Below are positions 125 to 56,736 of a DNA stretch of 64,000 nt, piece by piece. The notes below the pieces were generated by a model that had not been told where the DNA came from, made no database searches, and saw only the letters and a program-made list of their open reading frames with translations. The stretch comes from Aromatoleum anaerobium. GTDB taxonomy: Bacteria; Pseudomonadota; Gammaproteobacteria; Burkholderiales; Rhodocyclaceae. The stretch covers positions 1,054,001 to 1,118,000 of the forward strand of contig NZ_WTVG02000040.1 of NCBI RefSeq assembly GCF_012910705.2. The letters are read 5' to 3'. Made by a program: the position numbers and the translations under genes. Numbering within the stretch: position 1 is the first letter of the stretch; each line of letters starts with the position of its first letter.

Positions 125-1275
125 GCCGGCTGCGCCTGTTTTTCATGCGCGTCGAGCCACGCCGCGAGGTGCGCGGCGATACGCTGCGCCGCCCGGCCGT
201 CCCAGTATTCCGGTATGCGCCCGCGCTTGCCCCCGCCCTCGAGAACCGTGTCGACTGCCGCCCGCAGCGCCGCCGGATCGACGCCGACCAGCGTGTTCGT
301 GCCCTGCTCGACGGTGATCGGGCGTTCGGTGTTCTCGCGGATCGTCAGGCACGGCACGCCGAGCGCGGTCGTCTCCTCCTGGATGCCGCCCGAATCAGTC
401 AGCACGACCGTCGCCCCCGCCATCAGGCCGAGCATCTCGAGATAGCCCTGTGGCGGCAGGATGACGAAACCCGGCGCGCCGAGCCGGTCGAGCATGCCGA
501 ACCGTTCGAGGTTGTTGCGCGTGCGCGGATGCAGCGCGATCACCAGCGGCAGGCGCGTGCTGATCTCGCGCAGCGCCTCGATGATCGGCCCGAGCGTTTG
601 CGGATGATCGACGTTCGACGGGCGGTGCAGCGTCACGACGCCGTAGCCGCCGGCGAGCCGTTCCGACGGATACCCCACGGCCCCGAGCAACGCGGCTGGT
701 GGCGCGGCCTTCGGCAGATTGGCGAGCAGGCTGTCGATCATGACGTTGCCGACGAACACCATGCGCTCGGGCGCAATCCCTTCGCGCGCGAGGTTGTCGT
801 GGGCGCTGCGTTCGGTCGTATACAGAAGGTCCGATATCTGGTCCGTCAGGACGCGATTGATCTCTTCCGGCATCCTGCGGTCATGGCTGCGCAGGCCGGA
901 TTCGACGTGCGCCACCGGCACGTGGCGCTTGACCGCGACCAGCGCGCACGCCAGCGTCGAGTTCACGTCGCCGACCACCAGCACTGCACGGGCGCCGTGT
1001 TCGTCGATCACCGGTTCAAAACGCCTCATCACCTCGGCGGTCTGCACCGCATGGCTGGCCGAACCCACTTCGAGGTTCACCTCCGGGTGCGGCAGATCGA
1101 GGTCGGCGAACAGGCGCTCGTTCATCGCGCTGTCGTAGTGCTGGCCGGTATGCACGAGCAGCGTCCGCAGCGGCGGCCGATGCGCCGCGAGGGCGCGGAT
1201 GATCGGCGCCATTTTCATGTAGTTCGGGCGCGCCCCGACGACGCAGATCACCGGCGCCGCCCCTGGCTCAATCAT
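121..1275 (-). CDS. wecB: UDP-N-acetylglucosamine 2-epimerase (non-hydrolysing)
   Basis: 384 residues. Interconverts UDP-GlcNAc and UDP-ManNAc in the cytoplasm, supplying an activated sugar for surface polysaccharide. Family signatures are visible: [15 protein letters not shown] near residues 12-26, HTGQHYD near 42-48, [16 protein letters not shown] in the middle and TDSGGIQEE near the C terminus. The open frame extends upstream to 1479, but the ATG at 1275 follows a good GGAGGA ribosome-binding site and starts the conserved domain, and it overlaps the end of the upstream ATPase gene by only 8 nt. It is embedded in the XrtA exopolysaccharide operon and followed by a deacetylase, so its product probably feeds that polymer rather than enterobacterial common antigen. 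Confidence 0.93.
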
Positions 1276-2347
1276 GAGGCGAATCCTCCGTCGTGCCGTC
1301 GCGCCGCACCGCCGCCAGGAGCTGGTTAAGGACGTCGAGAGTGGCCGACAGCGAATGTTCGAGCCCGGCAATGCGCGCCTCGATGCGCTGCACGTCGAAG
1401 CTGGCCGCCATGCCGGCGACCTGCCCGGCCAGCCCGTGGGGAACCACCAGGCGAGCCGGATCGATCGATCCCGGGGCAAAGGCGCCGCCCTGGAACGGAA
1501 CCGGTTTTCCGTTCGTGCCCTTCCGCGGCGCGGGGTCGAACTCTTCCTTCAGTTCGGCGACGATTTCGCGCACGTCTTCACCGGACACTTCGTGACGCTC
1601 GGCGAGGAACGCGGACAGCATCAGCCTGTCGCACAGCGCGTTGATGCGCCGCGGGATGCCGCCGGTGTAGCCATAGATCGCATCGAACGCCGCGGGGGCA
1701 AAAACCGGGTCGCTCTCCCAGCCGACGTGATGCAGGCGATGCTCGATATAGGCGCGCGTCTCCTCAGCGTCCATCGGACCGAGATGATACGAAGCGATCA
1801 CCCGCTGCCGCAGCTGCTGCATCTGCGGACTCTGCATGACCTCCCTGAACTCGGGCTGGCCGACGAGGAAGCTCTGCAACAGCGCGTGATCTTCGAGCTG
1901 GAAGTTCGACAGCATGCGAAGTTCCTCGACCGCTTCCTCGTAGAGGTTCTGCGCCTCATCGACGATCAGCAGCGCCCGCTTGCCGGCGGCGGCGAGCGAC
2001 ACGAAATAGGTTTCGAGCGCGAGCAGCAGGCCGGCCTTGTCGAGACCCCGGCTGGGCACGCCAAACGCCACCGCGACCATGCGCAGGATGTCGTTCTGAT
2101 CGACCTGCGTGCTGACCAGGTTCGCGGCGATGACCTTGCCCGGATCGAGACGTTCGAGCAGGCTGCGCACCAGCGTCGTCTTGCCGGCGCCGATTTCACC
2201 CGTCACGACGATGAACCCCTCGTTCTGGTGCAGCCCGTATTCGAGATACGCCATCGCCCGTCGATGACCCCGGCTGCCATAAAAAAAAGCTGGATCGGGA
2301 TTGAGCTGAAAGGGTTTTGCGCGGAGCTTGAAATACGATTCGTACAT
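1268..2347 (-). CDS. XrtA/PEP-CTERM locus-associated ATPase
   Basis: 359 residues, an AAA-type ATPase of the PEP-CTERM-locus secretion ATPase subfamily, related to ExeA/GspA. It opens with MYESYFKLRAKPFQLNPDP, typical of that subfamily. The Walker A motif GEIGAGKT is at residues 50-57 and Walker B LLIVDEAQ at about 126-133, followed by an AAA lid with YTGGIPRRINALCDR. The Pro/Gly-rich region after about residue 280 looks like a linker, and the C terminus may form a coiled coil. No membrane segment is seen. It probably energises assembly or secretion of the exopolysaccharide, but no exact reaction is established. It lies 11 nt after the outer-membrane protein gene and overlaps wecB by 8 nt. 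Confidence 0.9.
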   Translation of the reverse strand: MYESYFKLRAKPFQLNPDPAFFYGSRGHRRAMAYLEYGLHQNEGFIVVTGEIGAGKTTLVRSLLERLDPGKVIAANLVSTQVDQNDILRMVAVAFGVPSRGLDKAGLLLALETYFVSLAAAGKRALLIVDEAQNLYEEAVEELRMLSNFQLEDHALLQSFLVGQPEFREVMQSPQMQQLRQRVIASYHLGPMDAEETRAYIEHRLHHVGWESDPVFAPAAFDAIYGYTGGIPRRINALCDRLMLSAFLAERHEVSGEDVREIVAELKEEFDPAPRKGTNGKPVPFQGGAFAPGSIDPARLVVPHGLAGQVAGMAASFDVQRIEARIAGLEHSLSATLDVLNQLLAAVRRDGTTEDSPHD

Positions 2348-2358
2348 TCGACCCCCGG

Positions 2359-3900
2359 TCAGAACTGCATGCCGATATTGGCAGTGAGTACGTTTTCGGT
2401 GAAGTCGGACGCCCCGTCCGCTTGCTGGAAACGGTACGTCAATCCGCCCGTCGTGTCCGGGCCCAGCCGGGTGCTGATTCCGACGGACAGCAGGTTGCGG
2501 TTCGTGTGCGCACGGGACGGCCCGGAACCGCTGGAGCGGGAACGCACGAAGCTCGCGTTCATCGTCGCCAGGGGAGACAGGCTGTGGCTCAGCGCCACCG
2601 TGCCCGACTCCGTGCTGACGGTATCAAAGGAGGAGAGATCATCGCGGGGATCGCTGACGAGCGGGCTCCCCAGGCGGGAACGCTCGGAGCTTTGCAGCGC
2701 GAACGTCAGCACGTTGCGTACGCCGCGCAGAGACACGCTGGCGCGCAGGACACGGGCCAGGAAGAAATTGTTGGTCACGAACGCGTCGCGCACGCCGGGC
2801 GCCGGGTAACCGAGTTGCTGGCGGACGAACGCCTCCCGGTCGAACGGGTCCGGTATTTCGCCCGCCAATGCGTCAAAGAGGCTTCTGAACGCCGGATCGT
2901 CGAAAACGCTTCCGGTGGTCTGCAGCGACGACGAGATGTCGCGCGAAAACGATACATTCCACACCGACAACGCCTGCCGATGACTGACGCTCAGATTGTA
3001 GCCCCGACCGAAGATACGGTTCTCGGTGGCACCCGAAACGACGGTCCGGTCCGTCGGATACCAGTCGAACCCCATGCCGGTGATGTCGTCGCTCTCGCCG
3101 GAGCGGACCGAGTAATCGTTCGACTCATGGCCAACAATGCCGCGCAGGCGCAGTTGGGGTGTGACCGAAAAAAGCAGCGAGGCCCGCGCGGTTTCCTCGC
3201 TCACCTCATTATTCGCCGCGTCATCGTAGCTGCTGTCGGTACGGGAGTAATCCAGCGCCCAGCCCACGCGGCCGAACGCCAGCGGATTGCTGAGCTGGCC
3301 GCGCCAGTCTCCGACCGTGCGCCGGACTGTCGCACCGCCGCCATCGAACCAGCGAAACGCATAACTGACAACCCCCTGGGTCTCGCTGCCCAGCCTGAAA
3401 TGCAGGCGGGGGCCGATCGAAAACAGGCGTGTCTCGTTGGCGCTGTCGGTCCCGAGAAAGTCTTCCGACGCGCGACCAGTCAACCCCGAGCGGTTGTTGC
3501 GGCTGATCGTTGCACCCATGTCGACGAAAAACGTCCGTTCGACCGCTTCGATCTGCCCAAGCCCCTGCAGCGCGACGAAAGTCGCGTTGCGATCACTGTC
3601 GCTCGCGTGCGCGGTGTTGCGCAGCCGGGCATTGAGGTTTCCGCTGATACGACCACGATCGCGCGAAATGACAATGGCGGGCGACACCTCCCCGATCCAG
3701 TCGGCTTTCTTCTCCCCGGAGGCACTGGAATTGTCGGTAAAGGTCAATCGGGCGTCGACAGATGGCCTGACCGTGACGGTTTGCGCAGTCGCATTGGCGA
3801 ACACAACCATCGCGCCGACAAGCGCCAGTGCCTTCGCGCTTCCCGCCCCGCAAACGCGCGGGTCGCGATCAGGCCGCCGCGTCCGTCCGGGAACCGGCAT
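2359..3900 (-). CDS. PEP-CTERM system outer-membrane protein, TIGR03016-like
   Basis: 513 residues. The N terminus has an arginine-rich n-region, a hydrophobic stretch ALALVGAMVVFANATAQ and a plausible signal-peptidase cut after ATA. The mature part alternates polar and aromatic residues and ends in phenylalanine (NIGMQF), as outer-membrane beta-barrels do. It matches in character the uncharacterised TIGR03016 family found in exosortase-A polysaccharide loci. The role is unproven; an outer-membrane partner in export is the likely guess. The frame is open to 4122, but the ATG at 3900 gives the signal peptide, and the upstream part is only the overlap with the tyrosine kinase gene, with which it shares 32 nt. 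Confidence 0.8.
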   Translation of the reverse strand: MPVPGRTRRPDRDPRVCGAGSAKALALVGAMVVFANATAQTVTVRPSVDARLTFTDNSSASGEKKADWIGEVSPAIVISRDRGRISGNLNARLRNTAHASDSDRNATFVALQGLGQIEAVERTFFVDMGATISRNNRSGLTGRASEDFLGTDSANETRLFSIGPRLHFRLGSETQGVVSYAFRWFDGGGATVRRTVGDWRGQLSNPLAFGRVGWALDYSRTDSSYDDAANNEVSEETARASLLFSVTPQLRLRGIVGHESNDYSVRSGESDDITGMGFDWYPTDRTVVSGATENRIFGRGYNLSVSHRQALSVWNVSFSRDISSSLQTTGSVFDDPAFRSLFDALAGEIPDPFDREAFVRQQLGYPAPGVRDAFVTNNFFLARVLRASVSLRGVRNVLTFALQSSERSRLGSPLVSDPRDDLSSFDTVSTESGTVALSHSLSPLATMNASFVRSRSSGSGPSRAHTNRNLLSVGISTRLGPDTTGGLTYRFQQADGASDFTENVLTANIGMQF

Positions 3901-4864
3901 CCTGTCCTTCCGATCGATAACCTCCACCGTAACCATAACCATAGCCGTAACCGTATCCATATCCGTAAAGGCTGCCACGTCCGCCTGCGTCCGCCTTGTT
4001 GAGCACCAGGAGCTTGACCGGGCAGGCTTCGATCGTCGACAGCGCGTGCTGGACGGCACCATGGGTCGTCCGCTCGGATTCGACGACCACCACGACCTGC
4101 CCCATGTGGGTCGCAAGCACACGCGCCTCGGTGGTTGCCAGCAGCGGCGGGGAATCGAACACGATGATCCGTTCCGCGTAACGGCTGGCCATCTCCTCGA
4201 GCAGGCGGTTCATCGCATCCGAAGCGATCAGTTCGGTTGCCCGCTGATGAACCATTCCGGCGGGGAGAATCGAAAGCTTCTCGACATTGGTTCGCAGCAG
4301 GACTTCGGAAAGATCTCCGACGTCGCCAACCAGCACGTCCATGAGACCTTTCCTGGGCGGCAGGCCAAGGCGCGAAAGTATCGCCGGTCGAGAAAAATCG
4401 GCATCGACAAGCAGGACCGTGTGGTCAAGCTCCATCGCGATGCTCATCGCCAGATTGATCGCGGTAAACGATTTGCCTTCGCCGGGCAGCGCACTGGTGA
4501 TCATGATCAGGTTGCCATTGACCACCGCCGCTGCACCCTTGCCCTGCGCATTGTGAATCAGCGGGCGCTTGATCACCCGGTATTCCTCGGCGATCACCGA
4601 GCGCGGCTGGTTCGGCGTGACGAGTCCGAGCTGGGTCAGGCGGTCCAGATCGAGTTCGATGCTGGCAGCGTGTGCAGCGACCCACTGCGCCTCCGCTGCA
4701 CGTTCGCTCCGCGCGGAGCGCGCAAGCAATGCGCCTGATGCCGCAGCGCTGGACTCCGCCGGCTTTTCGGCTCCGCCGGCGTTGTCGGCCTCCCGCTCCG
4801 GCGCTTGCGCATCGGCGCGCTGCAACTGGCTGAGCCGTTCCACGGCTTTTTCGATGAGACTCAT
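3869..4864 (-). CDS. XrtA-associated bacterial tyrosine autokinase
   Basis: 331 residues, the separate cytoplasmic kinase half of a Wzc-type system. It carries Walker A SALPGEGKS at residues 124-132, Walker A' LLVDADFSRP at 151-160 and Walker B IIVFDSPPLL at 233-242, the three motifs of BY-kinases. The C-terminal tail has a run of Gly-Tyr dipeptides (about residues 300-316), the expected autophosphorylation cluster. Phosphorylation of such tails normally tunes polymer export or length through the cognate Wzz-like protein, which is encoded 13 nt upstream. The N-terminal 60 residues are Ala/Glu-rich and probably a flexible linker. The start is supported by MSLIEKAVERLSQLQ, usual for this family. 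Confidence 0.92.
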   Translation of the reverse strand: MSLIEKAVERLSQLQRADAQAPEREADNAGGAEKPAESSAAASGALLARSARSERAAEAQWVAAHAASIELDLDRLTQLGLVTPNQPRSVIAEEYRVIKRPLIHNAQGKGAAAVVNGNLIMITSALPGEGKSFTAINLAMSIAMELDHTVLLVDADFSRPAILSRLGLPPRKGLMDVLVGDVGDLSEVLLRTNVEKLSILPAGMVHQRATELIASDAMNRLLEEMASRYAERIIVFDSPPLLATTEARVLATHMGQVVVVVESERTTHGAVQHALSTIEACPVKLLVLNKADAGGRGSLYGYGYGYGYGYGYGGGYRSEGQDAGSRTDAAA

Positions 4865-4877
4865 GGTTTGATCTCTC

Positions 4878-6422
4878 CTAGCCCTGCAGCAACTGCACCA
4901 TTGCCGTCATTCCGGCAACCGCCATGACGAACCCGGTAACACCTCCGCCAAACGCCAGCAGGCCACGCCGCCTTCTTCTTTCGAACACCGGGTCGGCCAG
5001 CAGCGAAACCGCCCCGAGCACCGGCAAGCCGGTGATTTCCCGCAGCGAACGCACATCGCCGAAGGCCGGGCGAAGCTGCGAGAGCAGGAAAGTCAATGCG
5101 ATGCCGGCCACCAGCCCGACCAACCCGGCAAGCGGCATCAGCAGGGCGCGGTTAGGTGCCGCGGGCTTGTTCGGCAGGCTCGGCGGATCGATCACCCGGA
5201 ACTCGGTAATCCCGCCCTGGGCGGTCATTTCCACCGACATATTGGCCGACTCGCGGCGCGTCACCAGCGATTCGTAGTTGCGCTTATGCACTTCGTAATC
5301 GCGGTTCAACTGCGTCTGCTCGGCTTCGATCTTCGGCAGGAGTTCGGCCGACGAGCGCAACTGCGCGAGCCGCGAGCCGAATTCGGCCACCCGCGCCGCC
5401 AGCGATGCGACCCGCGCCTCGGCCTCGGCGAGCGAAATCTTCATCTGCTGGACGACGGGGTTCGCAGTCGGGGCCCACGGTGCGCCCGCGTCGGCCTTCT
5501 TCATCGCTTCGACTTCCTTCTGTTTCTGCTCCTCGAGCTGCGCAATCACGCGCCGTGCGCCGACTACGTCGGGATGTTCGTCGGTGTAGCGCAACAGCAG
5601 GCCGTCGAGGTTCTTCTTCAGCAAGTCGATCCGCCCGTCGATCTCGGGCAACGAGACCGGCGACGAGTTGGCCGGCGGCTCCAGCAGCACGGGGTCCTCG
5701 CCGGCCAACTGGCGCTTGAGCGAATCGCGGGAATTCTCCGCTTCCTTGAGTTCAAGTTCCGCCTGTCGCAGTTGCGCGGACAATTCCGTCATCTGTGAAA
5801 CGTAGTCGCGCCCGCCGTCCCCAAGGAGCGCCATGTTGCGCAGGCGAAAGTCCTTCAGGCGGTTTTCCGCTTCGGTGAGCTTTTGCTCATAACTGGCGAT
5901 CTGCTCGTCGATGAAGCGCCGCGCCGAGGTGGAATCCTGCCGCTTCCCCACCAGCCCCGACTCCACGAACAGCGACACCAGCGCCTGGACGATGCGCTGG
6001 GCGCGCTCGGGGTGAACGTCCTGGTAGGCCAGCGTAAACAGGTTGTCCCGGCCTGCCCCCAGAATCTGCAGCCCCCCGGTAAGCTCGGCGATGAGCGCCT
6101 CACGCTCACCGGGAGTGCGTGCAGCCAGATCGAGGTCGGCCATCGTGATGAGTTTTTCCACGTTCGGGCGCGTGATCAGTGTGCGGCTCAAAATCGCGAT
6201 CTGCTGGTTGGTGTTCGGCTGAACCGCGAGGCCCGACATCAACGGGCGCAGCACCGACTGCGTGTCGACGTAAATGCGCGCCGTGGATTCGTAACGATCG
6301 GGCATCGAATAGACCGCAAAGCCTCCCGCAATCCCGGCGATCCACGCAAATGCGAGCCCCCACCAGCGGAAACGCCACATTCCGCGCAGGTACCCGACCA
6401 TCTGAGAAAAGAGTTCTTCCAT
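4878..6422 (-). CDS. XrtA-associated chain-length determinant (Wzz-like)
   Basis: 514 residues, inner-membrane polysaccharide co-polymerase. There is one membrane segment at about residues 18-40, a large periplasmic domain with long coiled-coil stretches between about 170 and 400, the Pro-rich PPSLPNKPAAPNR element before the second membrane segment at about 428-452, and a further hydrophobic C-terminal segment (from about 488). It has no kinase domain; the kinase is the separate gene 13 nt downstream. Together the two should act like Wzc, setting chain length and gating export. The N terminus MEELFSQMVGYLRGMWRFRWW is family-like. It lies between the outer-membrane export gene and the kinase. 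Confidence 0.92.
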   Translation of the reverse strand: MEELFSQMVGYLRGMWRFRWWGLAFAWIAGIAGGFAVYSMPDRYESTARIYVDTQSVLRPLMSGLAVQPNTNQQIAILSRTLITRPNVEKLITMADLDLAARTPGEREALIAELTGGLQILGAGRDNLFTLAYQDVHPERAQRIVQALVSLFVESGLVGKRQDSTSARRFIDEQIASYEQKLTEAENRLKDFRLRNMALLGDGGRDYVSQMTELSAQLRQAELELKEAENSRDSLKRQLAGEDPVLLEPPANSSPVSLPEIDGRIDLLKKNLDGLLLRYTDEHPDVVGARRVIAQLEEQKQKEVEAMKKADAGAPWAPTANPVVQQMKISLAEAEARVASLAARVAEFGSRLAQLRSSAELLPKIEAEQTQLNRDYEVHKRNYESLVTRRESANMSVEMTAQGGITEFRVIDPPSLPNKPAAPNRALLMPLAGLVGLVAGIALTFLLSQLRPAFGDVRSLREITGLPVLGAVSLLADPVFERRRRRGLLAFGGGVTGFVMAVAGMTAMVQLLQG

Positions 6423-54628: not shown

Positions 54629-54742
54629 ATGGAAGGATTCGCTTTGCGCGTTTGCGCACTGGATCGTGCAGCGGTGACCTGCCGCGGCCCTTCACCCACC
54701 GCAGCATGCTGCTCGGCTATTCTGCACGGATCGAGAGCATGA
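54629..54742 (+). CDS. Possible 37-residue upstream ORF
   Basis: ATG eight bases after GAGGAAGGAG, the best ribosome site in the area. It encodes a 37-residue Ala/Cys-rich peptide (starting MEGFALRVCALDR) whose TGA overlaps the next gene's ATG as ATGA at 54739-54742. It looks like a coupling ORF for the large protein rather than a functional protein. Confidence 0.4.
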   Translation: MEGFALRVCALDRAAVTCRGPSPTAACCSAILHGSRA

Positions 54743-56736
54743 TCCGCGACGACTCCGGCCCCACTACTGTCGATCCGTTCTGGACCGGCCTCGCCCCGAC
54801 CGCCCACCCGGCCCCGCCCAAGCGGCGGCGCATCGCCGTCTTCGGCCTGAGCTTCCTGCTGTTCGCCGCCGCGAGCCTGATCTACGACTACTCGCGTCCG
54901 GCCGAATACCGCACCACCGCGCGGCTGCGGATCGACATGCCGGGCAACGGCGACACCGCCGACGAGCGCAGGGCCGCAGTCCAGGCGGCGTTCCTGACCG
55001 AAGTCGAAGTGCTCACGAGCCGCCCACTCGTCGAAAAAGCGGCCGCCCGGCTCGCCGGCATCGGCACGCCGCTGCCGGCGGGAGCCGGCGACAGCGGCGA
55101 TGGCGTCGAGGACTATCGGCGGATGCTCGAGGCGACACCGGTCGAGGGAACCGACGTCGTCGAGCTTACAGCGAGTGGCAGGCCAGCCGACGCGCTTGCT
55201 CCGCTCGTCAACGCGTTGATCGACACTTACCGCGGCCAGCTCGCCGAACGGTATCGCGAGGATTCGGGCAGCCGTGCGATCAAGGCGCAGGACGAGGCCG
55301 ACAAGCTCGAAGAGCGTGTCGCCGAAAAGCGGCGTGCGCTCGACGACTATCGCCTCAGCCACGACATCGTCTCGCTCGAGCGCGACGAAAACCGCGTCCT
55401 GAGCCAGGTCAAGGGCGTCGGACAATCGCTGAACGCGGCGAACGACCGGCTCGTCACAGCCGAAGCGAAACTACGTTCGCTGCGCGAGTCGATCGCGGCC
55501 GGCAAGTCGATCGTCCGGGCGCGCGACAACCCGACGCTGTCCAATCTCGAGCAGCGTGCGTCGCAGTTGCGCGAGGAGCAGCACGAGTTGGAGCGGGCCT
55601 ACACGCCGGACTTCCTCGCGTTCGATCCGCGCGCCAAGGCCTTGCGCATGCGGATCGCGAGCCTGGACGAACAGATGAAGCAGGTCCGCGAAGGCGGGCA
55701 GCAGGCAGCGCTGAGCGACGCCGAGGAGGAAGTCGCGGCGGCGCGCGCGGCCGTCGACCGGCTGGCTCAACAGGCGGGCGGCGAGCGGCGGACGGTCCAG
55801 GCGTTCACTGCGCGCCTGGGCGAGTTCAAGGCCATGCAGGAGGAGCTGACCGGACTCGAGGAGATGCACCGGGCGGCGGTCGTCAGGGCGACCGGGCTGC
55901 AGGCCGCGGAGCGAATCCGCGTCCCGGAAGTGACGACGCTCGAAGCGGCTTTCCCGCCGGGCGAGCCGTGGCGGCCCCAATACGGCCGGGACGCGGCGAT
56001 CGGCGTGACGGCGTCGCTGCTGCTGGCGCTGCTGACGACCTGGATCGTCGAGCTTTTCAACCGCACTGCCCCGGCTCCGTCGCTCGTCATTGCGCCCGCG
56101 TGGCTGCGCAGCGTGCAGCTGCCGGTAGCGCGCTCACCCGAGGCGCTCGGCCAGTTCGCGCCGTCGGCGCTGCTCGCGGGCGCCGCGCAACTGCCGCGCG
56201 AACTCGACGAAGCCGAGATCGCGCAGCTGCTCGACGAACTGCCCGACGACGCCCGCATCGGCGCGCTCGCGCTGCTTTCCGGCCTGTCGTTCGATGAACT
56301 CGCGCGGCTGAAATGGCCGACGGTCGATCTGGCCGGCCACCGCATTCTCCTGCCGGACCGCGCCGTGCCGCTGTCTGCAGCGTTCGAGGCGCAACTCGGC
56401 CGGTACCGGGAACACCCTCCGCAAACGGACGACGGCCCTGTCGTCCCCGCCGCGAGTGGCGAGACGTCCGACGCGCTCGATGCGACGCTTCTTTACGCCG
56501 CGCATGATGCCGGCATCCCCGGCGCGGACGAGATCACGTCCGCGGCGCTGCGTCACAGCTACATCGCCTATCTGGTGCGCCAGGGCGTGCGTTTCGCGGA
56601 CCTGTTCGGCATCGTCGGGCGGCTCCCCGCCGACATGCTGGGCGCCTACACAGCGCTGTCGCCCGCGGGCAAGAAGCGCCCGCTCGAAGAGATCGACCGG
56701 ACTCATCCGGTGCTGCGCCACGTACGCTCCGCTTGA
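54739..56736 (+). CDS. Wzz/GumC-like protein fused to degenerate tyrosine recombinase domain
   Basis: 665 residues. Membrane helix 1 is at about 31-49, a periplasmic Wzz-like part with long coiled coils at about 180-390, and membrane helix 2 at about 418-440. The cytoplasmic tail, where kinases normally sit, is instead integrase-like: IAQLLDELPDDARIGALALL, GLSFDELARLKWPTVDLAG, RAVPLSAAFEAQL, ALRHSYIAYLVRQGV and GAYTAL. Against the recombinase consensus, Arg I is Ser517, the box II His is Ala602, Arg605 is kept, the third His/Trp is Arg and Tyr637 is kept, so catalysis is unlikely. ATG 54739 overlaps an upstream ORF. Confidence 0.8.
   Translation: MIRDDSGPTTVDPFWTGLAPTAHPAPPKRRRIAVFGLSFLLFAAASLIYDYSRPAEYRTTARLRIDMPGNGDTADERRAAVQAAFLTEVEVLTSRPLVEKAAARLAGIGTPLPAGAGDSGDGVEDYRRMLEATPVEGTDVVELTASGRPADALAPLVNALIDTYRGQLAERYREDSGSRAIKAQDEADKLEERVAEKRRALDDYRLSHDIVSLERDENRVLSQVKGVGQSLNAANDRLVTAEAKLRSLRESIAAGKSIVRARDNPTLSNLEQRASQLREEQHELERAYTPDFLAFDPRAKALRMRIASLDEQMKQVREGGQQAALSDAEEEVAAARAAVDRLAQQAGGERRTVQAFTARLGEFKAMQEELTGLEEMHRAAVVRATGLQAAERIRVPEVTTLEAAFPPGEPWRPQYGRDAAIGVTASLLLALLTTWIVELFNRTAPAPSLVIAPAWLRSVQLPVARSPEALGQFAPSALLAGAAQLPRELDEAEIAQLLDELPDDARIGALALLSGLSFDELARLKWPTVDLAGHRILLPDRAVPLSAAFEAQLGRYREHPPQTDDGPVVPAASGETSDALDATLLYAAHDAGIPGADEITSAALRHSYIAYLVRQGVRFADLFGIVGRLPADMLGAYTALSPAGKKRPLEEIDRTHPVLRHVRSA

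Follow-up and report, generated by a model that had tools for sequence, protein, structure and literature searches.

Polysaccharide co-polymerases (PCPs) have a part in determining how long capsules, O antigens and exopolysaccharides become; in Wzc, two transmembrane segments are combined with a cytoplasmic C-terminal domain. The closest described systems for the protein considered here are Wzc, a PCP-2a with a fused BY-kinase (PDB 9xgv, 7ni2), PslE of the Psl system (PDB 9v75), the PCP of the XrtA/PEP-CTERM system (TIGR03007) and, for the cytoplasmic part, XerA and XerD (PDB 4a8e, 1a0p), of the tyrosine recombinases (YR), whose catalytic set is R-K-H-R-H/W-Y. How PCPs are controlled from the cytoplasmic side without a kinase is, to our knowledge, an open question. 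Here, for a fusion protein from Aromatoleum anaerobium, sequence comparison shows which families its parts are homologous to, how it crosses the membrane, that its catalytic set is lost and its C-domain acidic, and how the fusion evolved. It is encoded in a stretch of 64,000 nucleotides (contig NZ_WTVG02000040.1; hereafter the window).

The protein resembles Wzc in its periplasmic part, its two transmembrane segments and the presence of a cytoplasmic C-terminal domain, but no kinase was found in it, and the cytoplasmic domain is a dead YR fold instead. PslE is likewise similar in the periplasmic part, and its solved chain is of comparable length (662 aa), whereas the C-domain profile of the fusion family has no PslE match even at E 10, so that no concealed kinship between PslE and the tail came to light. 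The XrtA-system model TIGR03007 matches all 18 fusion members compared (E ≤ 0.01), yet the window fusion scores 35.9 bits against a cut-off of 278.85, and the true TIGR03007 protein of the window is another gene. With XerA and XerD the similarity lies in the catalytic domain; unlike them, the fusion family lacks Arg I and the box II His (53/53 members), is acidic, has no core-binding domain and is anchored in the inner membrane.

The component families are known, but no description of the pairing, or of a YR fold that shows no sign of acting on DNA, was found in the open-access literature on fusion or dead recombinases, PslE and PEP-CTERM systems, as covered by titles and abstract openings among the matches listed. 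The words "integrase" and "recombinase" are absent from the text of PMC1569441.

Two halves of one protein

The gene is an open and intact ORF that starts with ATG (Table 1), and comparison with its relatives confirms that a chain-length-determinant-like protein and a non-catalytic YR domain are truly fused in it. An origin by frameshift or by an assembly join, which the sequence-only reading had itself named among the possible refutations, is rejected: many other genomes encode both parts in one ORF, and the fusion is no artefact because it recurs in the order of the window and in at least three other orders of the same class. Aromatoleum buckelii carries a copy with 89% identity.

Table 1. 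Position of the fusion gene, its parts and the XrtA-system genes in the window
Feature	Position	Strand	Basis
Whole gene, 665 aa, PCP-like with C-terminal dead tyrosine recombinase (YR) domain	54739..56736	+	single ORF; full-length relatives elsewhere
Transmembrane segment 1, residues ~32-51, KRRR (28-31) just before	54832..54891	+	hydropathy
Periplasmic part, residues ~52-417, kin of Wzc, PslE and XrtA-system PCP	54892..55989	+	profile match; TIGR03007
Transmembrane segment 2, residues ~418-441	55990..56061	+	hydropathy
Variable linker, residues ~442-477	56062..56169	+	alignment
Cytoplasmic domain, homologous to YR catalytic domain, residues 478-665, acidic, without catalytic set	56170..56733	+	profile/family matches; charge counts
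Ser517 at the Arg I place (Arg in 0/53 members)	56287..56289	+	alignment
Ala602 at the box II His place (His in 0/53; gap in one row)	56542..56544	+	alignment
Arg605 as Arg II, kept in 47/53	56551..56553	+	alignment
Tyr637 at the nucleophile place, Tyr in 41/53	56647..56649	+	alignment
XrtA-system PCP, 514 aa, TIGR03007 650 bits	4878-6422	-	NCBIfam
XrtA tyrosine autokinase, stand-alone	3869-4864	-	family scan
XrtA ATPase	1268-2347	-	family scan

Hydropathy places the two transmembrane segments on either side of a large periplasmic part, which is the topology of a PCP; residues 52–417 should therefore be periplasmic and residues 442–665 cytoplasmic, and the Wzz/GumC topology suggested earlier stands. 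A profile of the periplasmic parts of 18 members finds Wzc (E 1.4e-12) and PslE (E 2.3e-12), the latter aligned across profile positions 80–402. The Pfam family Wzz (PF02706) itself remains below threshold on the window protein (16.8–17.6 bits, cut-off 25.5) and matches 6 of the 18 members at E ≤ 0.01, at best with 1.2e-5. TIGR03007, the most frequent NCBIfam match among the members, reaches 2.4e-9 on the window protein. We assign the protein to the PCPs because of the Wzc and PslE profile match, the topology and TIGR03007. No kinase family was found after the second transmembrane segment by Pfam or NCBIfam scans of the tail, and PRK09841, a kinase model that includes the PCP part, matches one of the 18 members in a full-length scan.

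Taken singly, the tail of the window protein falls below the cut-off of PF00589 (Phage_integrase), with E 0.0029 and 17.8 bits against 27.1, and single-sequence scans of the protein span 15.0–17.8 bits; the PHROGs integrase family phrog_1 is matched at 3.8e-10, and phmmer finds XerA (4a8e) at 6e-4. A relative with 42% identity (L009) clears the PF00589 cut-off (34.9 bits, E 1.7e-8), PF00589 is found at E ≤ 0.01 in 16 of the 18 members, and phrog_1 also matches 16. Against the PDB, a profile of the 18 tails retrieves XerA (4a8e, 5.9e-14; 5hxy, 9.5e-13) and XerD (1a0p, 4e-9), and it also matches integrase-family proteins of the same genome. Judging by these matches, which are beyond chance, the tail is homologous to the YR catalytic domain, as had been proposed from the window sequence. 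An AlphaFold2 model from a two-row alignment was uninformative (pLDDT 40.7), and Foldseek returned nothing at E ≤ 0.001; the predicted order of helices and strands in this low-confidence model is compatible with a YR domain and proves nothing. The core-binding domain, N-terminal in tyrosine recombinases, is missing from the window protein, because all that stands ahead of the C-domain is the second transmembrane segment and a short variable linker. A C-terminal "HP" motif may be shared with XerC/XerD, and no weight is placed on it here.

Catalytic residues, charge and DNA binding

The residues named in the sequence-only reading were all recovered in the alignment: besides the four listed in Table 1, the window protein has Arg628 at the place of the third His/Trp. 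Across 53 full-length rows, from which L078 is left out, the Arg I place is taken by Thr, Ser, Ala, Gly, Leu, Lys or Asp, and His survives at the third His/Trp place in 4 rows; L079, whose gene is split over two frames in its genome, is a partial row. Where the nucleophile Tyr is absent, 11 rows have Leu and one has Cys, and Arg II and Tyr occur together in 39. By eye, the profile alignment contains no Lys opposite the catalytic Lys of XerA. Outside the catalytic set, Glu520 and Arg541 are each kept in 52 rows. By alignment, then, the C-domain is without its catalytic set, and catalysis is gone.

The charge of the domain also departs from that of integrase-family domains in the same genome. 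Residues 478–658 are net negative, with a pI below 7, in 53 of 53 members. When the extreme C-terminus is included, 17 of 18 tails are acidic (median net charge -7.5, pI 5.05), and the sole basic one, L032 (+3, pI 9.03), is acidic when cut at residue 658. The nine integrase-family catalytic domains compared from the same genome are all net positive (median +8, pI 9.9); these were picked by hand from 32 PF00589 matches, leaving out repeated copies and partial or lower-scoring ones, and are presumed recombinases by family match.

Could the recombinase fold still bind DNA without cutting it, and thereby anchor the protein to the chromosome or regulate transcription? In favour of this idea, the YR fold is one that binds DNA, and most members retain Arg II. 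Against this, the C-domain is acidic throughout the family and opposite in charge to the nine integrase-family domains, Arg I and the box II His are lost in every member, and no core-binding domain lies ahead of it. We regard DNA binding by the C-domain as unlikely, as judged from overall charge, and anchoring to DNA as unlikely because of the acidic charge together with the residue loss; a DNA-based role of this kind is in our view highly improbable, and the suggestion that polymer export is tied to the chromosome is not borne out.

A role for Tyr637 has also been put forward. In this alternative a BY-kinase acting in trans, namely the XrtA autokinase, would phosphorylate the tail or dock onto it, and Tyr637 or a different Tyr would serve as the switch. 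The genome does encode a stand-alone XrtA tyrosine autokinase, and a further tyrosine, Y608, is conserved in 15 of 16 diverse rows. However, Tyr637 itself gives way to Leu or Cys in 12 of the 53 members, and Y608 lies opposite a Phe of XerA in the helix after Arg II and is therefore probably a core residue. Phosphorylation of Tyr as a general function is unlikely, the earlier proposal of action through Tyr637 is not supported, and we consider it very unlikely that the tail serves as a target of a kinase in trans.

Among the recombinase matches of the same genome, a trio of adjacent tyrosine recombinase matches is present in four copies with identical scores (C2:177616-180028, C2:938480-940892, C8:783-3195 and C13:380469-382881), presumably a recombinase-in-trio element.

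Distribution, selection and history

The two-part architecture, whose presence in other genomes the sequence-only reading had suggested checking, occurs under at least 10 family codes. Matches that reach the C-domain were found in 7 of 41 relatives, including 5 of 17 genomes of the genus, with one more relative matching in the N-part only. In the order of the window, 10 of 399 genomes reach the C-domain and three more match in the N-part only; the corresponding counts are 6 of 369 plus one in a draw from the class, and 3 of 398 (one of them new) plus one in a draw from the phylum. Three other orders contain it as well: 7 of 36 genomes in that of G734, 4 of 148 in that of G1086, and about 50 of 161 in that of G669, where 64 genomes have any match, 13 stop short of the C-domain and one has a weak match in the N-part. 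A few genomes occur in more than one of these draws. Of the roughly 50 in the order of G669, 28 were examined, and 12 of the 13 shorter ones were fetched (all but G1278). One genome (G1420) has two full-length fused copies (C65:5652-7514 and C113:19311-21182). Spread via plasmids or viruses was rejected, with no tblastn match to the window protein in 72,556 plasmid records and no relative in viral contigs by patterns from the alignment.

Pairwise distances in the N-part and the C-domain are correlated (Mantel r 0.83, p 1e-4, 16 rows), and by this measure the halves have changed in step. Averaged over 16 diverse rows, identity is 34% for the periplasmic part and 32% for the C-domain, in which Q615, D590 and P642 are each kept in 15 rows and G616 in all 16. 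The term "decayed" that had been applied to the domain therefore fits the lost catalysis but would mislead if applied to the entire domain. Nei-Gojobori estimates for five orthologues from the genus give a median pairwise dN/dS of 0.16 in the periplasmic part and 0.33 in the C-domain, which indicates that the C-domain is under purifying selection, though at twice the periplasmic value.

The 12 fetched shorter members (L141–L152, genus g662) end after the second transmembrane segment with a short tail, at 485–538 aa in total. In a FastTree tree of the N-part with two outgroups, also without L078, they group as a single clade (support 0.949) that branches from among the full-length L153–L160, which have Leu in place of the Tyr. 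The simplest history consistent with this tree and the alignment would be a single fusion, catalysis lost early on, and the domain itself lost once thereafter.

What does this mean for the possibility that the tail is a functionless relic, carried along by a useful periplasmic part? The ratio of 0.33 against 0.16 and the 12 members without the domain mean that the domain can be lost, and both Tyr and Arg II vary among members. Against a relic stand a mean identity near that of the periplasmic part, four near-invariant or invariant residues, a dN/dS below 1 and the persistence of the fusion under at least ten family codes. We therefore consider a relic unlikely. The fusion probably has a job, since the same pairing is found in many related bacteria.

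Gene neighbourhood and possible role

In the window, the neighbours of the gene are a polyamine aminopropyltransferase-like gene and yjdM, and no glycan gene adjoins it. Over 18 loci, neighbours are held in common only within the genus, within the f6 group, or as one gene (G079, G124, G513). Five of 20 flanking ORFs from 11 other loci match no family at 1e-5, and the sole glycan gene among the 20 is a UDP-glucose/GDP-mannose dehydrogenase (L034), the rest being a transglycosylase and unrelated genes. Elsewhere, an ABC exporter on the same strand adjoins or overlaps the gene in six loci under two family codes (L127, L131, L133, L136, L138, L139; that of L127 carries PF00664 and PF00005), a GT2 glycosyltransferase lies directly downstream in L044, L125 and L135 and 421 bp off in L121, an SLT transglycosylase lies directly upstream in L034 and L035, and a mannose-1-phosphate guanylyltransferase-type gene is found near some other loci. 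Pfam identified each of these neighbour families in one or two loci (L127, L135, L121, L034), and the remaining assignments are via blastp cluster. Two GT9 heptosyltransferase genes are present in the fetched stretch of all 12 domain-less members. An HD-domain (DUF3391) gene lies near 11 of these 12.

The neighbourhood bears on whether the protein, though PCP-shaped, might instead scaffold some other envelope process that is unrelated to glycan length, for example the export of lipids together with the adjoining ABC exporter. The six exporter loci would fit such a scaffold, as would the finding that no Wzx, Wzy or OPX family was seen among the flanks scanned, a scan that was not systematic. 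However, the GT2 genes downstream in four loci, and the guanylyltransferase-type and dehydrogenase genes near others, point to glycans, and we find the scaffold alternative quite improbable.

The window itself contains an XrtA exopolysaccharide/PEP-CTERM locus (1268-6422, minus strand), 48 kb from the fusion gene, and the exosortase of the genome lies about 7.5 kb to the left of the window. An exosortase is present in 27 of 28 carriers tested, the exception being a genome in 450 contigs, and in 23 of 27 hand-chosen relatives without the fusion gene. In an even draw from the class, 127 of 369 genomes have one, all six carriers among them, for which a hand reckoning that ignores relatedness gives a chance of about 0.0015. 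A link between exosortase and fusion is suggestive, and could be by descent. A regulon in common with the PEP-CTERM genes was rejected: the sigma-54 consensus is a -24/-12 site, and none was found before 24 members at ≤2 mismatches (0/24; background 2.3%; one upstream stretch short, start codons as predicted).

What might the protein do? We give roughly even chances to the reading in which a PCP-type ring carries the dead YR fold as a cytoplasmic binding or oligomerising module that replaces the kinase. The fusion protein would form an oligomeric PCP ring, with the YR fold kept under the membrane as a protein–protein module that may hold the ring together, dock a partner, or both. The partner could in some lineages be the adjoining ABC exporter or family 2 glycosyltransferase, and the length of a glycan chain, or its hand-over, would be set without tyrosine phosphorylation. 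In its own genome, the fusion would be an accessory, orphan PCP, with the XrtA-system PCP and its separate kinase encoded in the same window. More tentatively, a YR catalytic domain may have been captured once by a PCP, have lost both catalysis and DNA binding, and have become the cytoplasmic oligomerisation or partner-docking ring of a kinase-free export machine for glycan or lipid-linked glycan, in effect a pseudo-recombinase at the membrane without DNA; this fuller scenario we hold to be possible but rather doubtful.

If true, this would be a case of a DNA recombinase fold put to non-DNA use. The family is a natural one in which the position of the kinase is taken by a dead recombinase fold and in which one genus has partly dropped the domain, and it offers a ready comparison of PCP-like proteins with and without a cytoplasmic module.

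The surroundings of the gene also vary between its relatives. In G011 and G005 (L038, L048), and by coordinates in G007, about 7 kb lie between the fusion gene and the polyamine aminopropyltransferase-like gene, which are adjacent in the window; one ORF of this stretch resembles, by eye, a membrane subunit of hydrogenase-4/formate hydrogenlyase.
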